Below, in pieces: positions 6,877-20,873 of a stretch of DNA of 64,000 nt. Origin of the DNA: Yoonia sp. I 8.24. Lineage in GTDB: Bacteria > Pseudomonadota > Alphaproteobacteria > Rhodobacterales > Rhodobacteraceae. Positions within the stretch are counted from its first letter, which is position 1. Each line of letters opens with the position of its first letter. Both the position numbers and the translations under genes were made by a program. The stretch is taken from contig NZ_JACXGQ010000004.1 of NCBI RefSeq assembly GCF_022096995.1, positions 248,001 through 312,000 of the forward strand, written 5' to 3'. Under the pieces are notes generated by a model. The model ran no database searches and was not told the DNA's origin. It saw only the letters and a list, made by a program, of their open reading frames with translations.

Positions 6877-7818
6877 TTATTCTTGTTCGGCGATAAACCG
6901 TTCAGCATCCAGCGCCGCCATGCAGCCCATTCCGGCAGACGTCACCGCCTGACGGTAGACGTGGTCGGTCAAATCGCCTGCGGCGAAAACGCCGGGAATT
7001 GCCGTGCGCGTACTGCCCGGCTCTACTGCGACATAACCGCCGCTGTGCAATTCCAGTTGATCTTTGACCAGTTCAGATGCAGGCGCATGGCCGATCGCGA
7101 TAAACACGCCTTTGGCGGGGATATCCGAGATTTCGCCTGTTTTAGTGTGTTTGACCTTGATGCCTTCAACACCAAGCGGGGTGTCGGTCCCGTAGATTTC
7201 TTCGATTTCATGGAACCAAAGTGTTTCAATCTTGGGGTTCTTTTCCAAACGATCTTGCAAGATCTTTTCTGCGCGCAATTCATCACGGCGGTGCACAAGC
7301 GTCACTTTGGCGGCAAAATTCGTCAAGAACAGCGCCTCTTCCACAGCCGTATTGCCGCCACCGACGACAACGATCTCTTGACCGCGATAGAAAAAACCGT
7401 CGCAGGTCGCGCAAGCGCTGACGCCAAAACCCTTGAACTTTTCTTCAGTCGGCAAGCCAAGCCATTTGGCGCGTGCGCCAGTACATAGGATCACAGCATC
7501 GGCTGTATAAACCGTGCCACTGTCGGATTGCGCCGTGAAAGGACGGTTTTGCAGATCCAGCTCGGTGATGATGTCACCGATAATCTCACACCCCATTGCA
7601 CGCGCATGCGCCTCTTGGCGGATCATTAGATCGGGCCCTTGGACTTCGGTATCACCGGGCCAGTTTTCAACTTCGGTTGTTGTTGTCAACTGACCACCTG
7701 GTTCAATCCCTTGCACAAGGATCGGTTCCAGCATTGCGCGCGCGGCATAGACCCCAGCGGTATAGCCCGCGGGGCCAGAGCCGATGATCAGAACTTTGGT
7801 ATGGCGGGTCTCGGACAT
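6877..7818 (-). CDS. trxB: Thioredoxin reductase
   Basis: An FAD- and NADPH-dependent disulfide reductase that keeps thioredoxin reduced. The 313-residue protein has the FAD-binding GSGPAGYTAG near residue 13, the redox-active CATC near residue 138, the NADPH-binding GGGNTAVEEA, and the C-terminal GVFAAGDL FAD motif. The start at 7818 (MSETRHTKVLIIGSG) has an AGAGAG ribosome site. The longer open frame to 8139 runs antisense through the Lrp gene and is not expected to be translated. It is divergent from the Lrp gene, with 166 bases between the starts. Confidence 0.95.
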   Translation of the reverse strand: MSETRHTKVLIIGSGPAGYTAGVYAARAMLEPILVQGIEPGGQLTTTTEVENWPGDTEVQGPDLMIRQEAHARAMGCEIIGDIITELDLQNRPFTAQSDSGTVYTADAVILCTGARAKWLGLPTEEKFKGFGVSACATCDGFFYRGQEIVVVGGGNTAVEEALFLTNFAAKVTLVHRRDELRAEKILQDRLEKNPKIETLWFHEIEEIYGTDTPLGVEGIKVKHTKTGEISDIPAKGVFIAIGHAPASELVKDQLELHSGGYVAVEPGSTRTAIPGVFAAGDLTDHVYRQAVTSAGMGCMAALDAERFIAEQE

Positions 7819-11327: not shown

Positions 11328-12926
11328 TTATGCTGTAGGGACGCCGACAAGGGCTTTTTGGCGTGCGCCACCCTTGATGGTCATGAAGATGTTCCACGCC
11401 ATGATCAGCGCACCAGCTAGATACAAGACCCCACCCAATCCACGGACAACAAGCATTGGGAACTTGGCAGAAACGGTGTCAGCAAAGCTGTTCACAAGGA
11501 ACCCGTTTGCGTCGACTTCACGCCACATCAGGCCTTCCATGATACCGGTAACCCACATGGAGGCGGCATAAAGAATGATGCCGATTGTGGCCAACCAGAA
11601 GTGCCAGCTGATCGCAGACATCGAATACATGCCTTCTTTGCCCCAAAGACGTGGTGCCAAGAAATACAGAGCCGAGAAGGTAATCATCCCGTTCCAACCA
11701 AGCGCACCAGAGTGCACGTGACCAATGGTCCAGTCGGTATAGTGTGACAAGCTGTTGACCGCACGGATCGACATCATCGGGCCTTCAAATGTGGACATGC
11801 CATAGAACGCGAGACTGATCACCATCATCCGAATGATCGGATCTGTACGCAGTTTGTCCCATGCCCCTTGCAGGGTCATCAGACCGTTAATCATCCCGCC
11901 CCATGAAGGCATCCAAAGGATGATCGAGAACACCATGCCCAGTGTCGATGCCCAATCGGGCAACGCGGTGTAGTGCAAGTGGTGTGGACCCGCCCAGATA
12001 TAAAGGAAGATCAGCGCCCAAAAGTGAATGATTGACAGTTTGTAAGAATAGACCGGACGGCCCGCTTGCTTCGGTACGAAGTAGTACATCATCCCAAGGA
12101 AACCCGCAGTCAAGAAGAAGCCAACCGCGTTATGGCCATACCACCATTGCGTCATAGCGTCTTGGACACCCGCAAAGAGCTGTACCGATTTGCTGCCCCA
12201 AATACTGACGGGAACGGAAAGGTTGTTCACGATGTGCAACATCGCCACGGTAATGATGAAAGACAGCAAGAACCAGTTGGCGACGTAAATGTGTTTTTCT
12301 TTGCGTTTGAAAATTGTGCCCAAATAAACCGCCAAGAAAGCGACCCAGACGATCGTCAGCCAGATGTCGACGTACCATTCGGGTTCGGCGTATTCTTTCG
12401 ACTGCGTCGCCCCAAGCAGGTAACCTGTCGCAGCAAGCACGATAAACAAATTGTACCCCCAAAACACAAACCACGACAGGTTTCCGCCCCACAACCGCGC
12501 GCCGCAGGTGCGCTGCACGATGTAGAATGACGACATAATCAACGCGTTGCCCCCAAAGGCAAAAATCACCGCACTTGTGTGCAGTGGGCGCAATCGGCCA
12601 AAGTTACCGAAAGGTTGGAGAAACTCAAAGTTAAGCGCTGGAAAGGCAAGCTGGAAGGCGATGACGACACCGACTAAGAACCCAACAACACCCCAAAAGG
12701 TCGTTGCGATGACACCCGCGCGGACGACATCGTCCATATAGCCATCGGTTGCCACTGGCTTGATCGGCTCATCTGTTTGGCGCAACGTGCGCAAAAACAA
12801 ATAGCCTGCAACAAGCATAATAATTACCGCGTGCACCACGTAGGCGATATCACGCCCCCAGTTTGCCGCGATGGCCGCGAACAGGGTGATTATCCCCAAC
12901 ACGACCAGCTTAACATAGTTCCCCAT
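11328..12926 (-). CDS. ccoN: cbb3-type cytochrome c oxidase catalytic subunit I
   Basis: The catalytic heme-copper subunit that reduces oxygen to water at very low oxygen and pumps protons. The 532-residue protein has about 12 membrane spans and conserved histidine-bearing segments such as [32 protein letters not shown] and [15 protein letters not shown]. The start at 12926 ([12 protein letters not shown]) gives normal family length; the longer frame to 13124 crosses the divergent usp promoter. An FNR box lies 89-102 bases upstream, so oxygen-responsive control by FnrL (encoded 2.6 kb away) is expected. Confidence 0.96.
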
Positions 12927-13014
12927 CCGAGAATCCCCTTCGTTTGCCGCGCCCAACACCGGGCACAACATTTGCTTACGACTCTCGTAATGGTGAACGG
13001 GCTGTGTTTCGTCT

Positions 13015-13028
13015 TTGACATGGATCAA
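13015..13028. promoter_or_regulatory. FNR/FnrL box between ccoN and usp
   Basis: TTGAC-ATGG-ATCAA matches the FNR consensus TTGAT-N4-ATCAA at 9 of 10 half-site bases. It sits about 89 bases upstream of ccoN and about 96 bases upstream of usp, so a single dimer could control both divergent genes. The nearby fnrL gene strengthens the call. Confidence 0.75.
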
Positions 13029-13123
13029 GACAACGTGATCCAGATTAGCAGATGGTAGCGCTGAGGTGCGGCTTGCGCGAACGGTCGCCCTACCGTCGAA
13101 ACCGAAAAGGGAACCGCCAGTCA

Positions 13124-13957
13124 ATGGATTACAAAATCATTGCAACCGTTCTGACCAGGCAAGATGACGCGCCCGACGCGTTGAATGCAGCAATCGCGCT
13201 TGCAACTGATATGAACGCGCATCTGGATATTTACATCGCCACCATCAGCCACACCGAAACCAACAATTACTATTTAGGCGCAGAGGCAATCATGGTCGCT
13301 GAGCAAACCCGCGAGGCGATGGCCGCGCGTGAAGAAATCGAGGCGTGGCTTGAAGAGCGGATGAAAGGCGAAGTCATCCGTTGGTCGTCAAAGGCAGCGA
13401 CAGTACAAGGCCCTGCGCTGACAGGGTATTTGGCGCGCAGCTTGCGTTTTTCCGATTTGGTCGTGCTCCCACGCCCCTATCAAGACAACCCGGAAACCGC
13501 CGCAGTCGTCGAAGCCTGCCTATTTTCTGCAGAGCGCCCGGTTTTGATGATCCCTGAAGGTTGCGAAATGCCAGCGCATGGCGGCCGCGTGCTCATGGGG
13601 TGGAACGATGGCGCAGAAGCGCTCGCGGCGGCTCGGGCCGCGTTGCCTCTGCTCGAAAAATCGGACCAAACCGACATCTGCATCATCGATCCGCCCGTCC
13701 ATGCGGCCGATCGATCTGACCCCGGCGGGGCGATGGCACAGTATTTAATGCGGCACGGAACAAAGACTCAGGTTGACGTTTTGGCAAAAACAGAGCCACA
13801 TGTCGGCGAGATACTGCTGCGTCATGCTCGGGAGGTTGGCGCACAGATGATCGTATCCGGTGCTTATGGCCATTCCCGTCTGCGCGAAGCCGTCCTTGGC
13901 GGCGCCACGCGCAGCCTATTGGAAATGGCGGACCGGCCGATCTTGATGTCGCGCTAA
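13124..13957 (+). CDS. Universal stress protein (UspA family, two tandem domains)
   Basis: A 277-residue protein with two Usp-like halves. The C-terminal half ends with [22 protein letters not shown], the ATP-binding G-x2-G-x9-G(S/T) pattern of Usp proteins. The N-terminal half (about 1-140) is more diverged. The start at 13124 ([13 protein letters not shown]) gives the normal Usp beginning. It is divergent from ccoN across an FNR box, so it is probably induced at low oxygen. It converges with the retron RT gene. Confidence 0.85.
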
Positions 13958-14028: not shown

Positions 14029-15339
14029 TCACCCACCGTTTATCGCGCGCGCATACAATTGTCGCAGCTTTTGACCGCGCGATGGATTTAACGTGCAGAC
14101 CCAATCGATTTGTCCTTCCAAAGATAGACAATGCGCGTGACCCAAACGGCCTAGATCATCAGTATGGCGCAATGCATTAATTTTGGCCTTGATCAGATCA
14201 TATCGCGCGCGCGGCACATTGATGTGCTGGTTCACCACAATCCCTGTCACCACCTGACGCTGCGCCGCATTGCGCACACGCGTCTTTCGTGGGTTCAGTA
14301 CGAACCCTTCCTCCTGCAAAATGTGTGGGACTGCCCTTGTCAGAACGGGTGCAATTCCTGCGTCACCCGAAAATGTAAGATCATCAGCATAGCGGCTGTA
14401 CTGCGCATCCAACGCACGCGCGAGCCCCGCCAACCGACGATCCAGCGTGAATGCAATCAAATTCGCTAATGCAGGCGACGACGGCGCGCCCTGCGGTAAA
14501 TGCGGGGTCCGCATCAACTGACCTTGCAGATGGGGTAACCGTGCGCGGACCCGCTGTGGCGTCGTGGTCGTACAAAGCCCCGTTAAGGTTCTCGCGACCG
14601 CATCCGGATATCCTAATCGCCGAAAAAGGCCAAAAACCCGCGCAGCCGCTAAGTTTGGAAAAAAGTCGCGTAGATCAAAGCCTACAACGGTTTGCGCCCC
14701 ACAGTGACGGTTTGCCGCTTGGGCACATGATTTACCGCGAACAAAACCGAATGCATCTGAATGGACAGGAACCTTGTCCAAAATCCCGCGCAAAATTTGA
14801 CGTTGTAACGCCTTAAGCCCCGATTTTGGGGCCTCGATTACGCGGTACCCGCCGGTTGGCTTGGGACGCAGCCCATATAAGTAATGATGTACCGGCGCAT
14901 CCGGGTGTTCGTTGTGGCGGTTCGCGATATCCGCCATATACATGAGCCGACCACCATCAATCACCAACCAATCTGCAAGCGCCGCGAATGTTGGGATATT
15001 GGGCAAATCCAATCTTGCGAACGGGAACAACGGGAGCATTTTACCGGAATTCAAATCTGGGTCCGGCCAAAGCCCCCGTCGCAAGCACTCACCGTGCAAT
15101 CGGACAAATGCATCACATGCGCACAAGGCCTTAGAAATCGCACCTGCGTTAGGGGCTGTCATCGCCGGTAAAAACGCCACAAGGTCTTCGGCGATCAACT
15201 GCGCTTCGCGTTGAAACTGTGCTGGCAGGCGCCGCTTTAATGCCCCGGTGACATCCGAGACAGCCCAACGCCCCTTGGCCAAACTTGGCGCGACTAACCT
15301 CGCAAAGATTTTTAGCGAATTTCTTTGGTCAGGGTGCAA
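14029..15339 (-). CDS. Retron-type reverse transcriptase
   Basis: A reverse transcriptase of 436 residues if the TTG at 15339 is used; the next in-frame ATG is about residue 60. RT motifs in order: RVIEAPKSGLKALQRQIL (167-184), GFVRGKSCAQAANRH (198-212, equivalent to the retron NAxxH region), catalytic Asp in FDLRDFFPN (221-229), LPQGAPSSP (281-289), RYADDLTFSG with the YADD box (316-325), and VTG (364-366), a retron Y-region mark. The series resembles, from memory, myxobacterial Mx162-like RTs. An N-terminal extension of about 130-150 residues precedes the RT core. It would reverse-transcribe the structured RNA just upstream into msDNA. No maturase or endonuclease domain is seen, against a group II intron. 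Confidence 0.88.
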   Translation of the reverse strand: MHPDQRNSLKIFARLVAPSLAKGRWAVSDVTGALKRRLPAQFQREAQLIAEDLVAFLPAMTAPNAGAISKALCACDAFVRLHGECLRRGLWPDPDLNSGKMLPLFPFARLDLPNIPTFAALADWLVIDGGRLMYMADIANRHNEHPDAPVHHYLYGLRPKPTGGYRVIEAPKSGLKALQRQILRGILDKVPVHSDAFGFVRGKSCAQAANRHCGAQTVVGFDLRDFFPNLAAARVFGLFRRLGYPDAVARTLTGLCTTTTPQRVRARLPHLQGQLMRTPHLPQGAPSSPALANLIAFTLDRRLAGLARALDAQYSRYADDLTFSGDAGIAPVLTRAVPHILQEEGFVLNPRKTRVRNAAQRQVVTGIVVNQHINVPRARYDLIKAKINALRHTDDLGRLGHAHCLSLEGQIDWVCTLNPSRGQKLRQLYARAINGG

Positions 15340-15343
15340 CGAA

Positions 15344-15477
15344 CGATCTCTGCCTTTCTTGGTCGCGCGTCACCAGGACTGGGTAACGCCCAGTCACGGT
15401 GATGCCGTGTATGCAAAGGTCGTTTGGTCAGGCGGGGATACCCCGCCCTTGGTATCAAAGACACCAGCCAGAGATCG
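15344..15477 (-). ncRNA. Retron msr-msd non-coding RNA (predicted)
   Basis: Directly upstream of the RT start, a 9-base perfect inverted repeat frames the region: a1 CGATCTCTG at 15477-15469 and a2 CAGAGATCG at 15352-15344 (minus strand). After a1 a G (15468, candidate branch base) leads into a short hairpin GGTGTC-TTT-GATACC (15465-15451, one G-U pair, UUU loop). A 7-pair hairpin GGCGGGG-TAT-CCCCGCC (15447-15431) follows. The msd part begins CCTTT (15419-15415), pairing with AAAGG (15357-15353). It encloses a long hairpin with GACTGGG/CCCAGTC (15395-15389 / 15383-15377) and outer TCACC/GGTGA. This order is the retron blueprint. Ends and branch base are estimates. Confidence 0.8.
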
Positions 15478-15532
15478 CCGTTGCCCCTAAGGCTTAGCGC
15501 CAAAAAACCGCTGAGACAACACGCCCACTGCG

Positions 15533-16252
15533 CTAGTCGGCTTCACCGGTTTCATCCTTAAGCGCTTCAACATCAGGCACCGTGATATCGCGGCGGTCGG
15601 TAAATGAAATCAGCCCATCGCGCTTTAACGCCGACATCTGGCGGCTCACCGTTTCAATCGTGAGGCCAAGATAATTTGCCATCGTTTCGCGGGTAATCGG
15701 TAAGGTGAACGTTGTGCTCTCTGAGGTTTGTGCCGACAACTTCGCCATCCGAATAGCGATCATATAGAGCAACGAAGCAATTTTTTCACGGGCAGTTTTG
15801 CGCCCTAACACCAACATCCATTCACGCGCCGCATCCAATTCATCCAACGTCATTTCCAACAGGCGTTGGCCGACATGAGGCGTGTGATCAATCAAACGCT
15901 CAAACGGTTTGCGCCGAAAACAGCAGAGCATCACATCCGTTTCAGCGACCACATCGCAATCAATCGTATCTCGGTTGGGGCGGCCCAAAAAATCACCGGG
16001 TAACAACAGACCAACCATTTGGACGCGCCCGTCGGGCATGGTCCGCGTCAGGCTCGACACGCCCGAAACGATGGATGCCACAAATTCCAATGGATCACCC
16101 GCAAAGAAAATCGGCTGTCCAGCTGCGAAGGAGCGATAATATTTGATCGCTTCCAGCTCTTGCATTTCGTCAACGTCACACTTTGAACAAACCGCATTAT
16201 ACCGGATGGGGCATTCTTCACAGGAGTTCATTGACGGCGGTGAAATCTTCAT
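15533..16252 (-). CDS. fnrL: FNR-type oxygen-sensing transcriptional regulator (FnrL)
   Basis: A Crp/Fnr-family regulator of 239 residues that activates microaerobic genes when its oxygen-labile [4Fe-4S] cluster is intact. Cysteines cluster at the N-terminus (CEECPIRYNAVCSKC) and a further one occurs in DTIDCDV, matching FNR cluster ligation. The cyclic-nucleotide-binding fold spans about 30-140, and the helix-turn-helix ITRETMANYLGLTIETVSRQMSAL lies near 175-200. The start at 16252 (MKISPPSMNSCEECP) is favoured over a 32-residue extension that lacks family character. An FNR box sits in front of ccoN and usp nearby. The retron RNA begins about 56 bases beyond its stop. Confidence 0.92.
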   Translation of the reverse strand: MKISPPSMNSCEECPIRYNAVCSKCDVDEMQELEAIKYYRSFAAGQPIFFAGDPLEFVASIVSGVSSLTRTMPDGRVQMVGLLLPGDFLGRPNRDTIDCDVVAETDVMLCCFRRKPFERLIDHTPHVGQRLLEMTLDELDAAREWMLVLGRKTAREKIASLLYMIAIRMAKLSAQTSESTTFTLPITRETMANYLGLTIETVSRQMSALKRDGLISFTDRRDITVPDVEALKDETGEAD

Positions 16253-18354: not shown

Positions 18355-19362
18355 TTAGGACCCTTTGCGGCGTCGTACCGTGTCGGCATAGACGGCCAGA
18401 ATGATGATTGCGCCGGTCACAACGGTTTGCCATTCCTGTGCCACCGACAAGATTCGCAACCCGTTCAGCAACACAGCCATGATCAACGCACCGATCAGCG
18501 TCCCTACGATTGTCCCACGCCCGCCGGACAGCGATGTGCCACCAATGACCACGGCCGCAATTGCTTCGAGTTCGTAGCCAAGCCCAAGTGCTGGTTGCGC
18601 AGAATTCAAACGTGATGCGATGATCAGGCCCGCAATCCCGACAATGGCACCCGAAAGTGTATAGATCGCGATTTTCCAGTTGTTCGTGTTGACGCCGGAC
18701 AGGCGGACAGCCTCTTCGTTGCTTCCCAGCGCGAAACAGTAACGCCCCAGAACTGTGCGGCTCAGAATATAGGACGTGGCCCCCGCCACGACGAACAGGA
18801 TGAGCACGCCATTGGGAATGGGAAGCGACGGAAGAACTTCGCCAATCAGCGAGCCACGCGAAATTAGATCAAAACCCGGCGTATCATTGAAATAGATCGG
18901 GCGGGTGCCCGAGATCACGAGGCTTAGCCCCTTGAGGATCAGCATCATACCTAGGGTCGCAATGAAGGGCGGGATTTTCATCTTGGCGACAAGCGAGCCC
19001 GATATAAAACCGCAAAATGCGCCGGTCAAAATGCCTGTCAAAACACCCAAAGGAAGCGGCAAGCCGAGATTGGTCAAAACCATGCCCGTCATCACAGCCG
19101 TAAAGGTCATCAGCGTACCAACGGACAGGTCAATCCCACCAGTGATGATCACAAGCGTCGCTGCAATCGCAAGCACCCCGTTCACAGATGTCGCCTGCAA
19201 AATCGCAATCATATTAGACGTTTGCATGAAATTCGGCGAAGCAATGCTAAACCCAATCAACAGGATAACCAAACTGGTAAATGCAAGAATTTTCTGGAAC
19301 GCCCCGCCAGCCACGAGTTTGGCAAAAGCGCCTTGTGTGTCAGTATTTATCATGGCGGTCAT
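18355..19362 (-). CDS. Sugar ABC transporter permease (RbsC-like)
   Basis: An inner-membrane permease of 335 residues with about 8-10 hydrophobic segments, of the RbsC/XylH-type branched family. It includes [15 protein letters not shown] near residue 75 and [27 protein letters not shown] near the C-terminus, both classic for sugar permeases of this group. The start overlaps the upstream ATPase stop by 4 bases. It forms an importer with the adjacent ATPase and binding protein. Confidence 0.9.
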
Positions 19363-20873
19363 TGGATGGATTCCTCGGTTTTGTCGGTCTGTGTCGCGAG
19401 CTTCATAATTTGTTCTTGCGTGGCCCCTTCACGCGGCACGATGCCGGTCAGATGGCCTTCGCACATGACGGCGATCCGGTGTGAGAGCCGCAGAATTTCC
19501 GGCAATTCAGAGCTGATCACGATAATCGCGCGCCCTTGGGCCGCGAGATCTTCGAGTAGCCGATAAATTTCGGATTTTGCGCCAACATCAATGCCACGTG
19601 TCGGTTCGTCAAAGATCAAGATGTCGCAATCGCGCAGCAGCCATTTGGCAATGACAACTTTTTGCTGGTTCCCACCCGACAAAAGGCCGACGTCTTGCAT
19701 ATCGGACGGCGTCCGAATGCCAAGCTGCTCAATGAACCCATCAGCAGTTTGCTTCATCGCCGCCTCGTCCAAGACACCTGTCTTGCTGGTGAACTTACCC
19801 ATCGCAGCCATCGCGATATTGGCGCGCACCGTCATATCAAGTGCGAGACCGAAATGCTTGCGGTCTTCGGACAGATACCCAATCCCCGCGCCAACAGCAT
19901 CATAGGGGCTACGGATATTGCAAGGCTGCCCATGCACCAAAATCTCGCCGCCATCACGCGGATCGGCACCAAAGATGATCCGTGCCACCTCTGTCCGCCC
20001 AGCGCCCATCAGCCCCGCAAACCCTAAGATTTCACCTTGTTTGACGCTAAAGCTGACATCGTGAATTTCACGGCCCCGCTTCAACCCGCGCACTTCGAGC
20101 GCAGTTTCAGCGTCCGACGTATCAGGAATAACTGTCGGCTTGTCCTTGACTTCGCGGCCAACCATCAGCTCGATAATCTTCGCCAGCGGGGTTTGCGCCG
20201 CATCCAGCGTATCAATCCACGCGCCGTCCCGCATCACGGTCACACGGTCCGCTATGCGCTTAATTTCATCCATCTTATGGCTGATATAGATGATGCCGAC
20301 GCCGTCCGCTTTGAGACGGCGAATAACTTCGAACAGCTCAGCGATTTCAACATCGTTAAGCGCGGCCGTCGGTTCATCCATGATCAAAACGCGCGGTTTG
20401 TAGGACAGCGCCTTGGCGATTTCGATCAACTGCTGGCGGGCGATGGTTTGATCGCCGACATGCGCACGCGGGTTCATGTCCAGCTTCATCGACGCAAAGA
20501 TTTCTGCAGTTTGTTGATTGAGCGCGGCTTCATCCAAACGCCCAAAACTGCGGCGCGGTTCGCGCCCGATAAAGACATTCTGGGCCGCGGTCAGGTCATT
20601 CATCAGGCTGAGCTCCTGATGGATAATCCCGATCCCCATATCTTGGGCGGCGCGCGGGCTGTCGGGGGCCGTATCGAACCCGTCGATCGCCACCGTCCCC
20701 CCATCGCGCGTATAAACACCTGACAGGATTTTCATCAGCGTCGATTTACCTGCGCCGTTTTCGCCCATCAACGCGTGGACTTCGCCACTGTGCAGGTCAA
20801 ATTGCACATTTTTCAGCGCATGCACGCCCGGGAACCGCTTTTCGATACCCGTCATTGCGACCAATTTTGTCAT
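19359..20873 (-). CDS. Sugar ABC transporter ATP-binding protein (RbsA-like, two domains)
   Basis: A 504-residue tandem ATPase. Domain 1 has Walker [10 protein letters not shown] near residue 37 and Walker [14 protein letters not shown]. Domain 2 carries a diverged Walker A region ([16 protein letters not shown]), an intact signature [10 protein letters not shown], and [14 protein letters not shown]. That asymmetry is normal for RbsA/MglA-type proteins. It energises uptake with the RbsC-like permease, which it overlaps by 4 bases. It follows the SDR gene by 33 bases in the fucose operon. Confidence 0.92.

Follow-up and report, generated by a model that had tools for sequence, protein, structure and literature searches.

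A covarying noncoding RNA linked to an untyped clade of retron-type reverse transcriptases

Most of the retrons that have been studied are tripartite, and to our knowledge the role of those without a linked effector is unsettled. By both profile and fold, the best PDB relative of the reverse transcriptase (RT) examined here is that of Retron-Eco1 (Ec86), which has the same RT core, and the two loci share the same order of elements, with msr hairpins and then an msd between paired ends. RT binding in Eco1 and Eco3 depends on an msr hairpin of 8–9 pairs (8 in Eco1) with a three-base loop (PMC6868368). Unlike our locus, Eco1 has an effector (PDB title 7v9x), and studied retrons typically carry a toxic one (PMC12548924); the solved chains of the Ec86 RT comprise 309–349 residues, compared with 436 in our RT. 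RTs with an extended N terminus, like ours, occur in Mxa1 (Mx162), Mxa2 (Mx65), Sau1, and Nex2, and Mxa1 and Sau1 are thought to be vertically inherited; the msd of Mx162 is 162 nt long, whereas we predict approximately 67 nt for ours (PMC6868368). Retron-Bth1, which can be likened to our locus by description only, is DNA-producing, has no apparent effector, and has an unclassified RT, but it is located on an extrachromosomal element and is interrupted by a group II intron (PMC12548924). A different retron, with an NDT effector, has been predicted in Sulfitobacter (PMC10221251). A retron with no apparent effector (Bth1; PMC12548924) and N-terminally extended myxobacterial RTs (PMC6868368) are thus already known. 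Literature searches by titles and the beginnings of abstracts found no description of the RNA family reported below or of its breadth, and the main classification (Mestre 2020) may already list both the clade and the RNA.

The RT and its genomic setting

We analyzed a 64,000-nucleotide stretch of DNA from Yoonia sp. I 8.24 (the window; positions are counted from its first base). The source genome (3.5 Mb in 22 contigs) contains one RVT_1 match, which is the RT of the window, and one match genome-wide to the RNA described below. The RT gene (14029–15339, minus strand) encodes 436 residues, with a helical N-terminal extension (approximately residues 1–110) and an RVT_1 match at residues 159–357 (E = 4e-21). 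It sits between fnrL (15533–16252, minus strand; NCBIfam FnrL, E = 1.3e-116) and a universal stress protein gene, usp, that converges on it (13052–13957, plus strand; Usp, E = 1.4e-6). The ORF beyond usp (11328–13124) is presumably ccoN. A simple scan of the locus for a sigma-70-like promoter and a terminator found none.

The best PADLOC model for the window RT was RT_other (E = 3.2e-125, 417 bits), followed by RT_outgroup (394 bits) and, in third place, RT_XIII (296 bits), so the protein is not best described by the type XIII model. Motif counts, PADLOC matches, and structure were examined for a set of 52 RTs (that of the window and those of 51 of 66 loci), and all 52 matched these three models at E <= 1e-60; the labels RT_other and RT_outgroup name no type. 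NCBIfam retron RT models matched the window RT below their curated cut-offs. When an AlphaFold model of the protein (pLDDT 95.1) was used in a structure search, the best PDB matches were retron RTs, with the Ec86 RT first (E = 2.5e-22, TM 0.82 over the target), and a profile search matched another PDB entry of the Ec86 RT at E = 1.6e-57. The X motif reads AAxxH in the window RT, and across the set H is present in 52 RTs, A in 48, and N in 3; the VTG of the Y motif is present in the window RT and in 25 of the 52. The frequencies given for retron RTs are 100% for H, 87% for A, 62% for N, and 47% for VTG (PMC4244168). We conclude from the HMM and structural comparisons that the window RT belongs to the retron lineage. 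The possibility that the adjacent RNA is a DGR or DRT template was rejected because the RT is closest to retron RTs.

In the AlphaFold model, residues 1–88 form five helices, which are followed by a linker and then by the RT core. This N-terminal domain shows little conservation (the top residue has a mean frequency of 0.33 over residues 1–100, versus 0.63 over residues 150–400) and has no Pfam match. It contains no invariant column in 41 sequences, and a PDB fold search gave nothing at E <= 0.001 among the best 50 of 64 matches at E <= 10; these two results speak against an enzymatic toxin in the domain, and we rejected that candidate.

Structure and conservation of the upstream RNA

The original prediction placed an msr-msd RNA directly 5' of the RT gene, with a perfect 9-base inverted repeat framing 116 bases. 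On the minus strand, from which all of the RNA features are read, this repeat is present exactly as claimed, the a1 core being CGATCTCTG (15477–15469) and the a2 core CAGAGATCG (15352–15344). The arms are real, but the stem does not stop at nine pairs: past a small internal loop it runs on outward as GCAACG (15479–15484) paired with CGTTGC (15336–15341), and the latter element contains the called RT start, TTG (15339–15337). Between the arms, RNA folding gives msr hairpin 1 (15450–15466), with 7 pairs and the UUU loop that had been noticed. Folding and conservation together define msr hairpin 2 (15430–15448), described originally as a GC hairpin of 7 pairs, which has 8 pairs, including one G-U, and a UAU loop. 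The long msd-like hairpin that had been proposed is found at 15405–15367 as a stem-loop of two helices. It lies within a predicted msd template of approximately 67 nt (15353–15419) that is bounded by a2 and by CCTTT, with a putative end point. In the window, CCTTT (15415–15419) faces AAAGG (15353–15357) at the msd base, as suggested. The first base 3' of a1, G15468, is the predicted priming (branching) guanosine by the position rule of PMC6868368.

The minimum free energy of the RNA is -69.3 kcal/mol, compared with -46.2 +/- 3.7 kcal/mol for shuffled sequences (z = -6.21; 0 of 200 shuffles were as good), and the complementary single-stranded DNA of 15353–15424 folds with z = -3.1. The z score of the RNA, together with the covariation described below, led us to reject a chance palindrome. 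Rfam gave no match at gathering over the window, and over 15300–15520 it returned two matches (E = 5.6 and 6.1) that were far below their gathering scores.

We looked for compensatory changes in homologues. When the RT was searched against 394 genomes from its bacterial family, 61 had a match at E <= 0.001, of which 15 were full-length, namely that of the window and 14 others at 44–52% identity, and the upstream layout is the same at all 14 of these other loci. An alignment of 28 RNAs combined those of the window and the family homologues with those of 13 further named RT loci. From the series L047–L065, six were left out: L049, L060, L061, and L063 (which repeat L003, L014, L012, and L016), L055 (which is cut by a contig end), and L058 (which was later found by the covariance model). 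The RNAalifold consensus of this alignment has 28 pairs, 23 of which have at least one compensated sequence. A second alignment, made by MAFFT without structure, holds the 13 of the 28 RNAs that are most like that of the window, and in it 92.3% of the cells at 41 named pairs are paired, compared with 83.4% in shuffles (0 of 500). Both sides have changed at 21 of the 41 pairs, compared with 10.6 in shuffles, and the covariation score is 0.351 versus 0.171, the shuffle controls taking no account of the relatedness of the sequences. Sliding the partners lowers pairing to 41–46%, a control that leans toward the structure because the structure was derived from these same sequences.

The individual helices differ in how they are conserved across the 13 homologues. 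Every cell of the a1/a2 core is paired, and 6 of its 9 pairs show changes in both partners; in the outer helix 82.1% of cells are paired and 2 of 6 pairs are changed on both sides; in L009, for example, the outer helix reads GCAGCG/CGCTGC. The two helices of the msd stem are 96.7% and 93.6% paired, and 9 of their 13 pairs covary. Hairpin 2 is 100% paired with 1 of 8 pairs covarying, its GGGG-NNN-CCCC core being nearly invariant; in the 53 model matches described below, whose alignment was fitted to the model, it is 99.8% paired and 4 of 8 pairs covary. Hairpin 1 is retained as a structure although its sequence varies, with a fold energy of -3 kcal/mol or lower in 28 of 28 aligned sequences and in 44 of 46 from a second set (7 of 53 distant-match rows were too short for scoring) and with mean z scores against plain shuffles of -2.8 and -1.9, respectively. 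Its UUU loop is shared with G409 and G432, the nearest kin of the window, and is absent from homologues beyond them. The CCTTT/AAAGG pairing fares similarly: only 70.8% of its cells are paired, with the first pair formed in 13 of 13 homologues and the second in 11 of 13, and it is mostly unconserved. We regard both this loop and the full five-pair CCTTT/AAAGG base as local details that do not characterize the wider group.

Linkage of the RNA to one clade of RTs

A covariance model built from the 28-RNA alignment was tested on 61 more distant RT loci outside it (L066–L126), and it gave 53 matches at E <= 0.05, including 47 at E <= 0.001. At 52 of the 61 loci, the RNA lies on the plus strand just upstream of the RT and ends -12 to +78 nt from the called start, the lower bound being fixed by construction, as the search for a start codon began 14 nt before the RNA end. 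Five of these 52 matches have E > 0.001 (L100, L126, L085, L069, and L102). According to their records, the 52 come from Pseudomonadota (27), Actinomycetota (9), Acidobacteriota (7), Planctomycetota (5), Myxococcota (3), and Gemmatimonadota (1), and many of the records are metagenome-assembled genomes (MAGs). Nine loci had no plus-strand match at E <= 0.05 (L066, L067, L072, L088, L115, L118, L119, L122, and L125). By eye, a similar hairpin 2 can be seen in L088, L115, L119, and L125 and a weaker one in L118, and none is seen in L072 or L122; in L067 the match starts at base 13, which leaves no upstream sequence. Among the 53 matches, 95.1% of cells are paired and 23 of 28 pairs covary in an alignment fitted to the model, and when 30 of the 53 were realigned from scratch with MAFFT, the same four helices were recovered and 22 of 28 pairs had compensated changes. 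One further observation concerns L066, where the model matches solely on the strand that does not encode the RT, at a position upstream of the RT (7546–7639, E = 0.022).

Other retron-type RTs gave a different result. In the same bacterial family, 15 loci that carry such RTs (L017–L031) had no match to the model even at E <= 10, and the Pyxidicoccus RT loci L176 and L177 gave no match. In a quick tree of 77 RTs, with SH-aLRT as the sole support measure and with long branches flagged among the other retrons, 60 clade members fall on one side of a branch with SH-aLRT 100. Three of the other RTs of the family (L017–L019, frames of 595–662 aa) group with Pyxidicoccus L176 and L177 (SH-aLRT 94–98) and not with the window clade, and by this grouping they would be a second retron lineage in the family. 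The Pyxidicoccus genome itself (G588) has three RTs, of which L175 (the same as L110) is in the window's clade and L176 and L177 are outside it; L177 is presumably the Mx162 orthologue. The RT of L062, labelled Exiguobacterium, groups with a Gemmobacter RT and has an ABC-F-like gene downstream, as in Rhodobacteraceae loci, and this record is probably a mislabelled MAG.

Within the genus, 7 of 56 genomes have a full-length RT, one (G397) has RT fragments, and one (G445) has a weak match to another RT. The RNA is present at all seven full-length RTs (the window and L127–L132). A separate search for the RNA in 40 genomes of the genus, in which at most 73 candidates per genome were scored, found it in at least five, each with the RT, and none of the other 35, G397 among them, has a full-length RT. 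A class-wide RNA search of 142 genomes, which matched in the window's own genome alone, scored at most 20 candidates per genome and is hence uninformative. The RT lies between fnrL and usp in four of the seven genomes (G000, which is that of the window, G409, G432, and G398) and away from these genes in G435, G399, and G434. The RT fragments of G397 occupy the same slot and have no RNA match. Among 30 fnrL loci (L137–L166), eight without an RT (L141, L147, L149, L150, L153, L155, L156, and L164) have fnrL and usp matches 33–117 nt apart. In the genus, the gap between the two genes (window 14029–15532) thus holds a retron, RT fragments, other ORFs, or almost nothing. As its contents differ between genomes, the slot is variable, and the RT and the RNA come and go together. 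A more distant clade member at 46% identity (L038, from G171) is also located downstream of an fnrL-like gene.

The RT is under purifying selection, with dN/dS of approximately 0.15 against G409 and G432 (pS 0.31, 446 codons); synonymous sites are near saturation against G398. Between the window and G432, 5 of 154 bases of the RNA differ, compared with 31% of synonymous RT sites. Taken together, these data show that the covarying RNA stays linked to one clade of retron-type RTs. Compensatory changes, co-occurrence of RNA and RT, and the retron relatives of the RT all support the proposal of an msr-msd RNA directly 5' of a retron RT gene.

When the window RT was used as a query, four phage records matched at E <= 1e-20 and four plasmid records at E <= 1e-40, and none of them covered 80% of the query. 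The plasmid matches, on three Burkholderia replicons of 0.9–1.3 Mb and one from Tsukamurella, span 65–75% of the query at 44–46% identity, so distant clade members may sit on such replicons.

Proposed mechanism and alternative explanations

The locus is very probably a functional retron, for which msDNA synthesis and function are extrapolated from known retrons. Hairpin 2 is likely to be the RT recognition element, as its size is that of the RT-binding hairpins of Eco1 and Eco3. The RT would bind hairpin 2 while a1 pairs with a2, and the 2'-OH of G15468 would then prime copying from the base 5' of a2 (15353). The RT would copy approximately 67 nt of single-stranded DNA toward 15419 and stop near there, giving a branched RNA-DNA whose two parts stay joined through a short hybrid near CCTTT. 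The predicted geometry, 67 nt from 15353 to 15419, fits the msDNA length of 65–75 nt proposed originally. The base directly 3' of a1 is G in 13 of 13 homologues. At the corresponding columns, 36 of 47 scorable rows of distant members read CAAG or CGAG, often followed by C, which is close to the AGC motif of PMC6868368; the UGGC of the window departs from AGC and is not among the contexts listed in that paper. In the window and its near kin, the location of the TTG start within the outer helix suggests a possible competition between translation of the RT and folding of its template RNA; since an ATG is the first start codon to follow the RNA in 40 of 66 loci, any such coupling is not general. 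Counting against a functional retron are the UGGC priming context, the lack of a sigma-70-like promoter or terminator in the simple scan, the motif frequencies (N of NAxxH in 3 of 52 RTs and VTG in 25 of 52), the 9 of 61 distant loci without a match, the NCBIfam matches below cut-off, the patchy distribution (7 of 56 genomes), and the failure to find an effector.

The search for an effector covered the two nearest ORFs on each side at 91 loci, which were called by a simple procedure and clustered at a threshold of E = 1e-6 into groups present in at least three loci (88 of the 91 loci had a downstream ORF). No neighbor recurred beyond local synteny or broad families. The groups include fnrL (three loci), an ATPase that we take to be ABC-F-like (several Rhodobacteraceae loci), and a gene that is presumably DCC-like (three loci); judged by their first residues, the other recurrent neighbors seem to belong to broad families, among them histidine kinases and dehydrogenases. 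It is possible that a fast-evolving small partner escaped clustering at this threshold. At L040, L041, L045, and L062, the ATPase gene (approximately 551 aa or more) immediately follows the RT on the same strand, an arrangement that points to vertical inheritance at these loci. PADLOC, run on ten neighbors in the window, gave matches only in the ORF at 19359–20873 (best mad3, 1.8e-41), which we take for a sugar ABC transporter ATPase. A linked or fused effector, as in a tripartite defense retron, was therefore found neither at the 91 loci, nor among the ten scanned neighbors, nor in the fold of the N-terminal domain, and we assign the retron to an untyped clade without a linked effector.

This result bears on a variant of our reading in which the locus would be an anti-phage retron of the ordinary kind, its toxin being either the N-terminal domain of the RT or the product of a gene elsewhere in the genome. 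That variant is a real possibility, if not the one we would choose. It accords with the toxic effector typical of studied retrons (PMC12548924), with the confidently predicted N-terminal domain of approximately 110 aa, and with the variation of the fnrL-usp slot between species. In addition, 27 of the 91 loci have an ORF that begins no more than 100 nt downstream of the RT on the same strand, which leaves room for locus-specific partners. The neighbors found in three or more of the 91 loci are nevertheless matters of local synteny or broad families, PADLOC matched one of ten window neighbors (19359–20873, mad3), and the N-terminal domain has neither an invariant column in 41 sequences nor a PDB match at E <= 0.001.

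Two other explanations dispense with msDNA or with function. The position of the start codon raises the question of whether the RNA is a structured leader that controls translation of the RT, with no msDNA made. In the window, L006, and L008, the first start codon to follow the a2 core is a TTG in the outer helix, and the next in-frame start codon is 57, 36, and 48 nt further on, respectively; at 52 of the 61 distant loci, moreover, the RNA adjoins the start of the RT. Against this, the ATG that comes first after the RNA in 40 of 66 loci mostly lies beyond the structure, and the a1/a2 repeats, the order of hairpins and msd, the G after a1, and the retron-lineage RT form a full retron set. We consider a leader without msDNA very unlikely. 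That the locus is a decaying relic is harder still to credit: the genus member G397 does keep only RT fragments at the same fnrL site, with no RNA match, but the window frame stays open for 446 codons, ten of which precede the called start, dN/dS is approximately 0.15, and 5 of 154 RNA bases have changed relative to G432, compared with 31% of synonymous RT sites.

Returning to a functional retron, because no linked effector was found, its output, whether in phage or stress sensing, might pass through the helical N-terminal domain of the RT, through an unlinked host protein, or through the msDNA itself. A fuller picture, which we put forward tentatively and think rather unlikely to hold in every part, is that the clade represents an old type of retron, found in at least six phyla and carried mainly on chromosomes, which has no linked toxin and in which the RT, with its variable N-terminal domain, and the msDNA would be the whole machine. 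Some members would set the level of RT by competition between folding and translation at a start codon inside a2, and the copy in the fnrL-usp slot may have come to serve the physiology of its host (oxygen or stress) and not phage defense.

The clade combines one RNA architecture and a compact msd with no partner gene found, and it occurs in six phyla and in cultured strains, which makes the role of retrons lacking a linked effector directly testable. The covariance model allows such retrons to be annotated, and the clade offers short RT/template pairs for DNA production.
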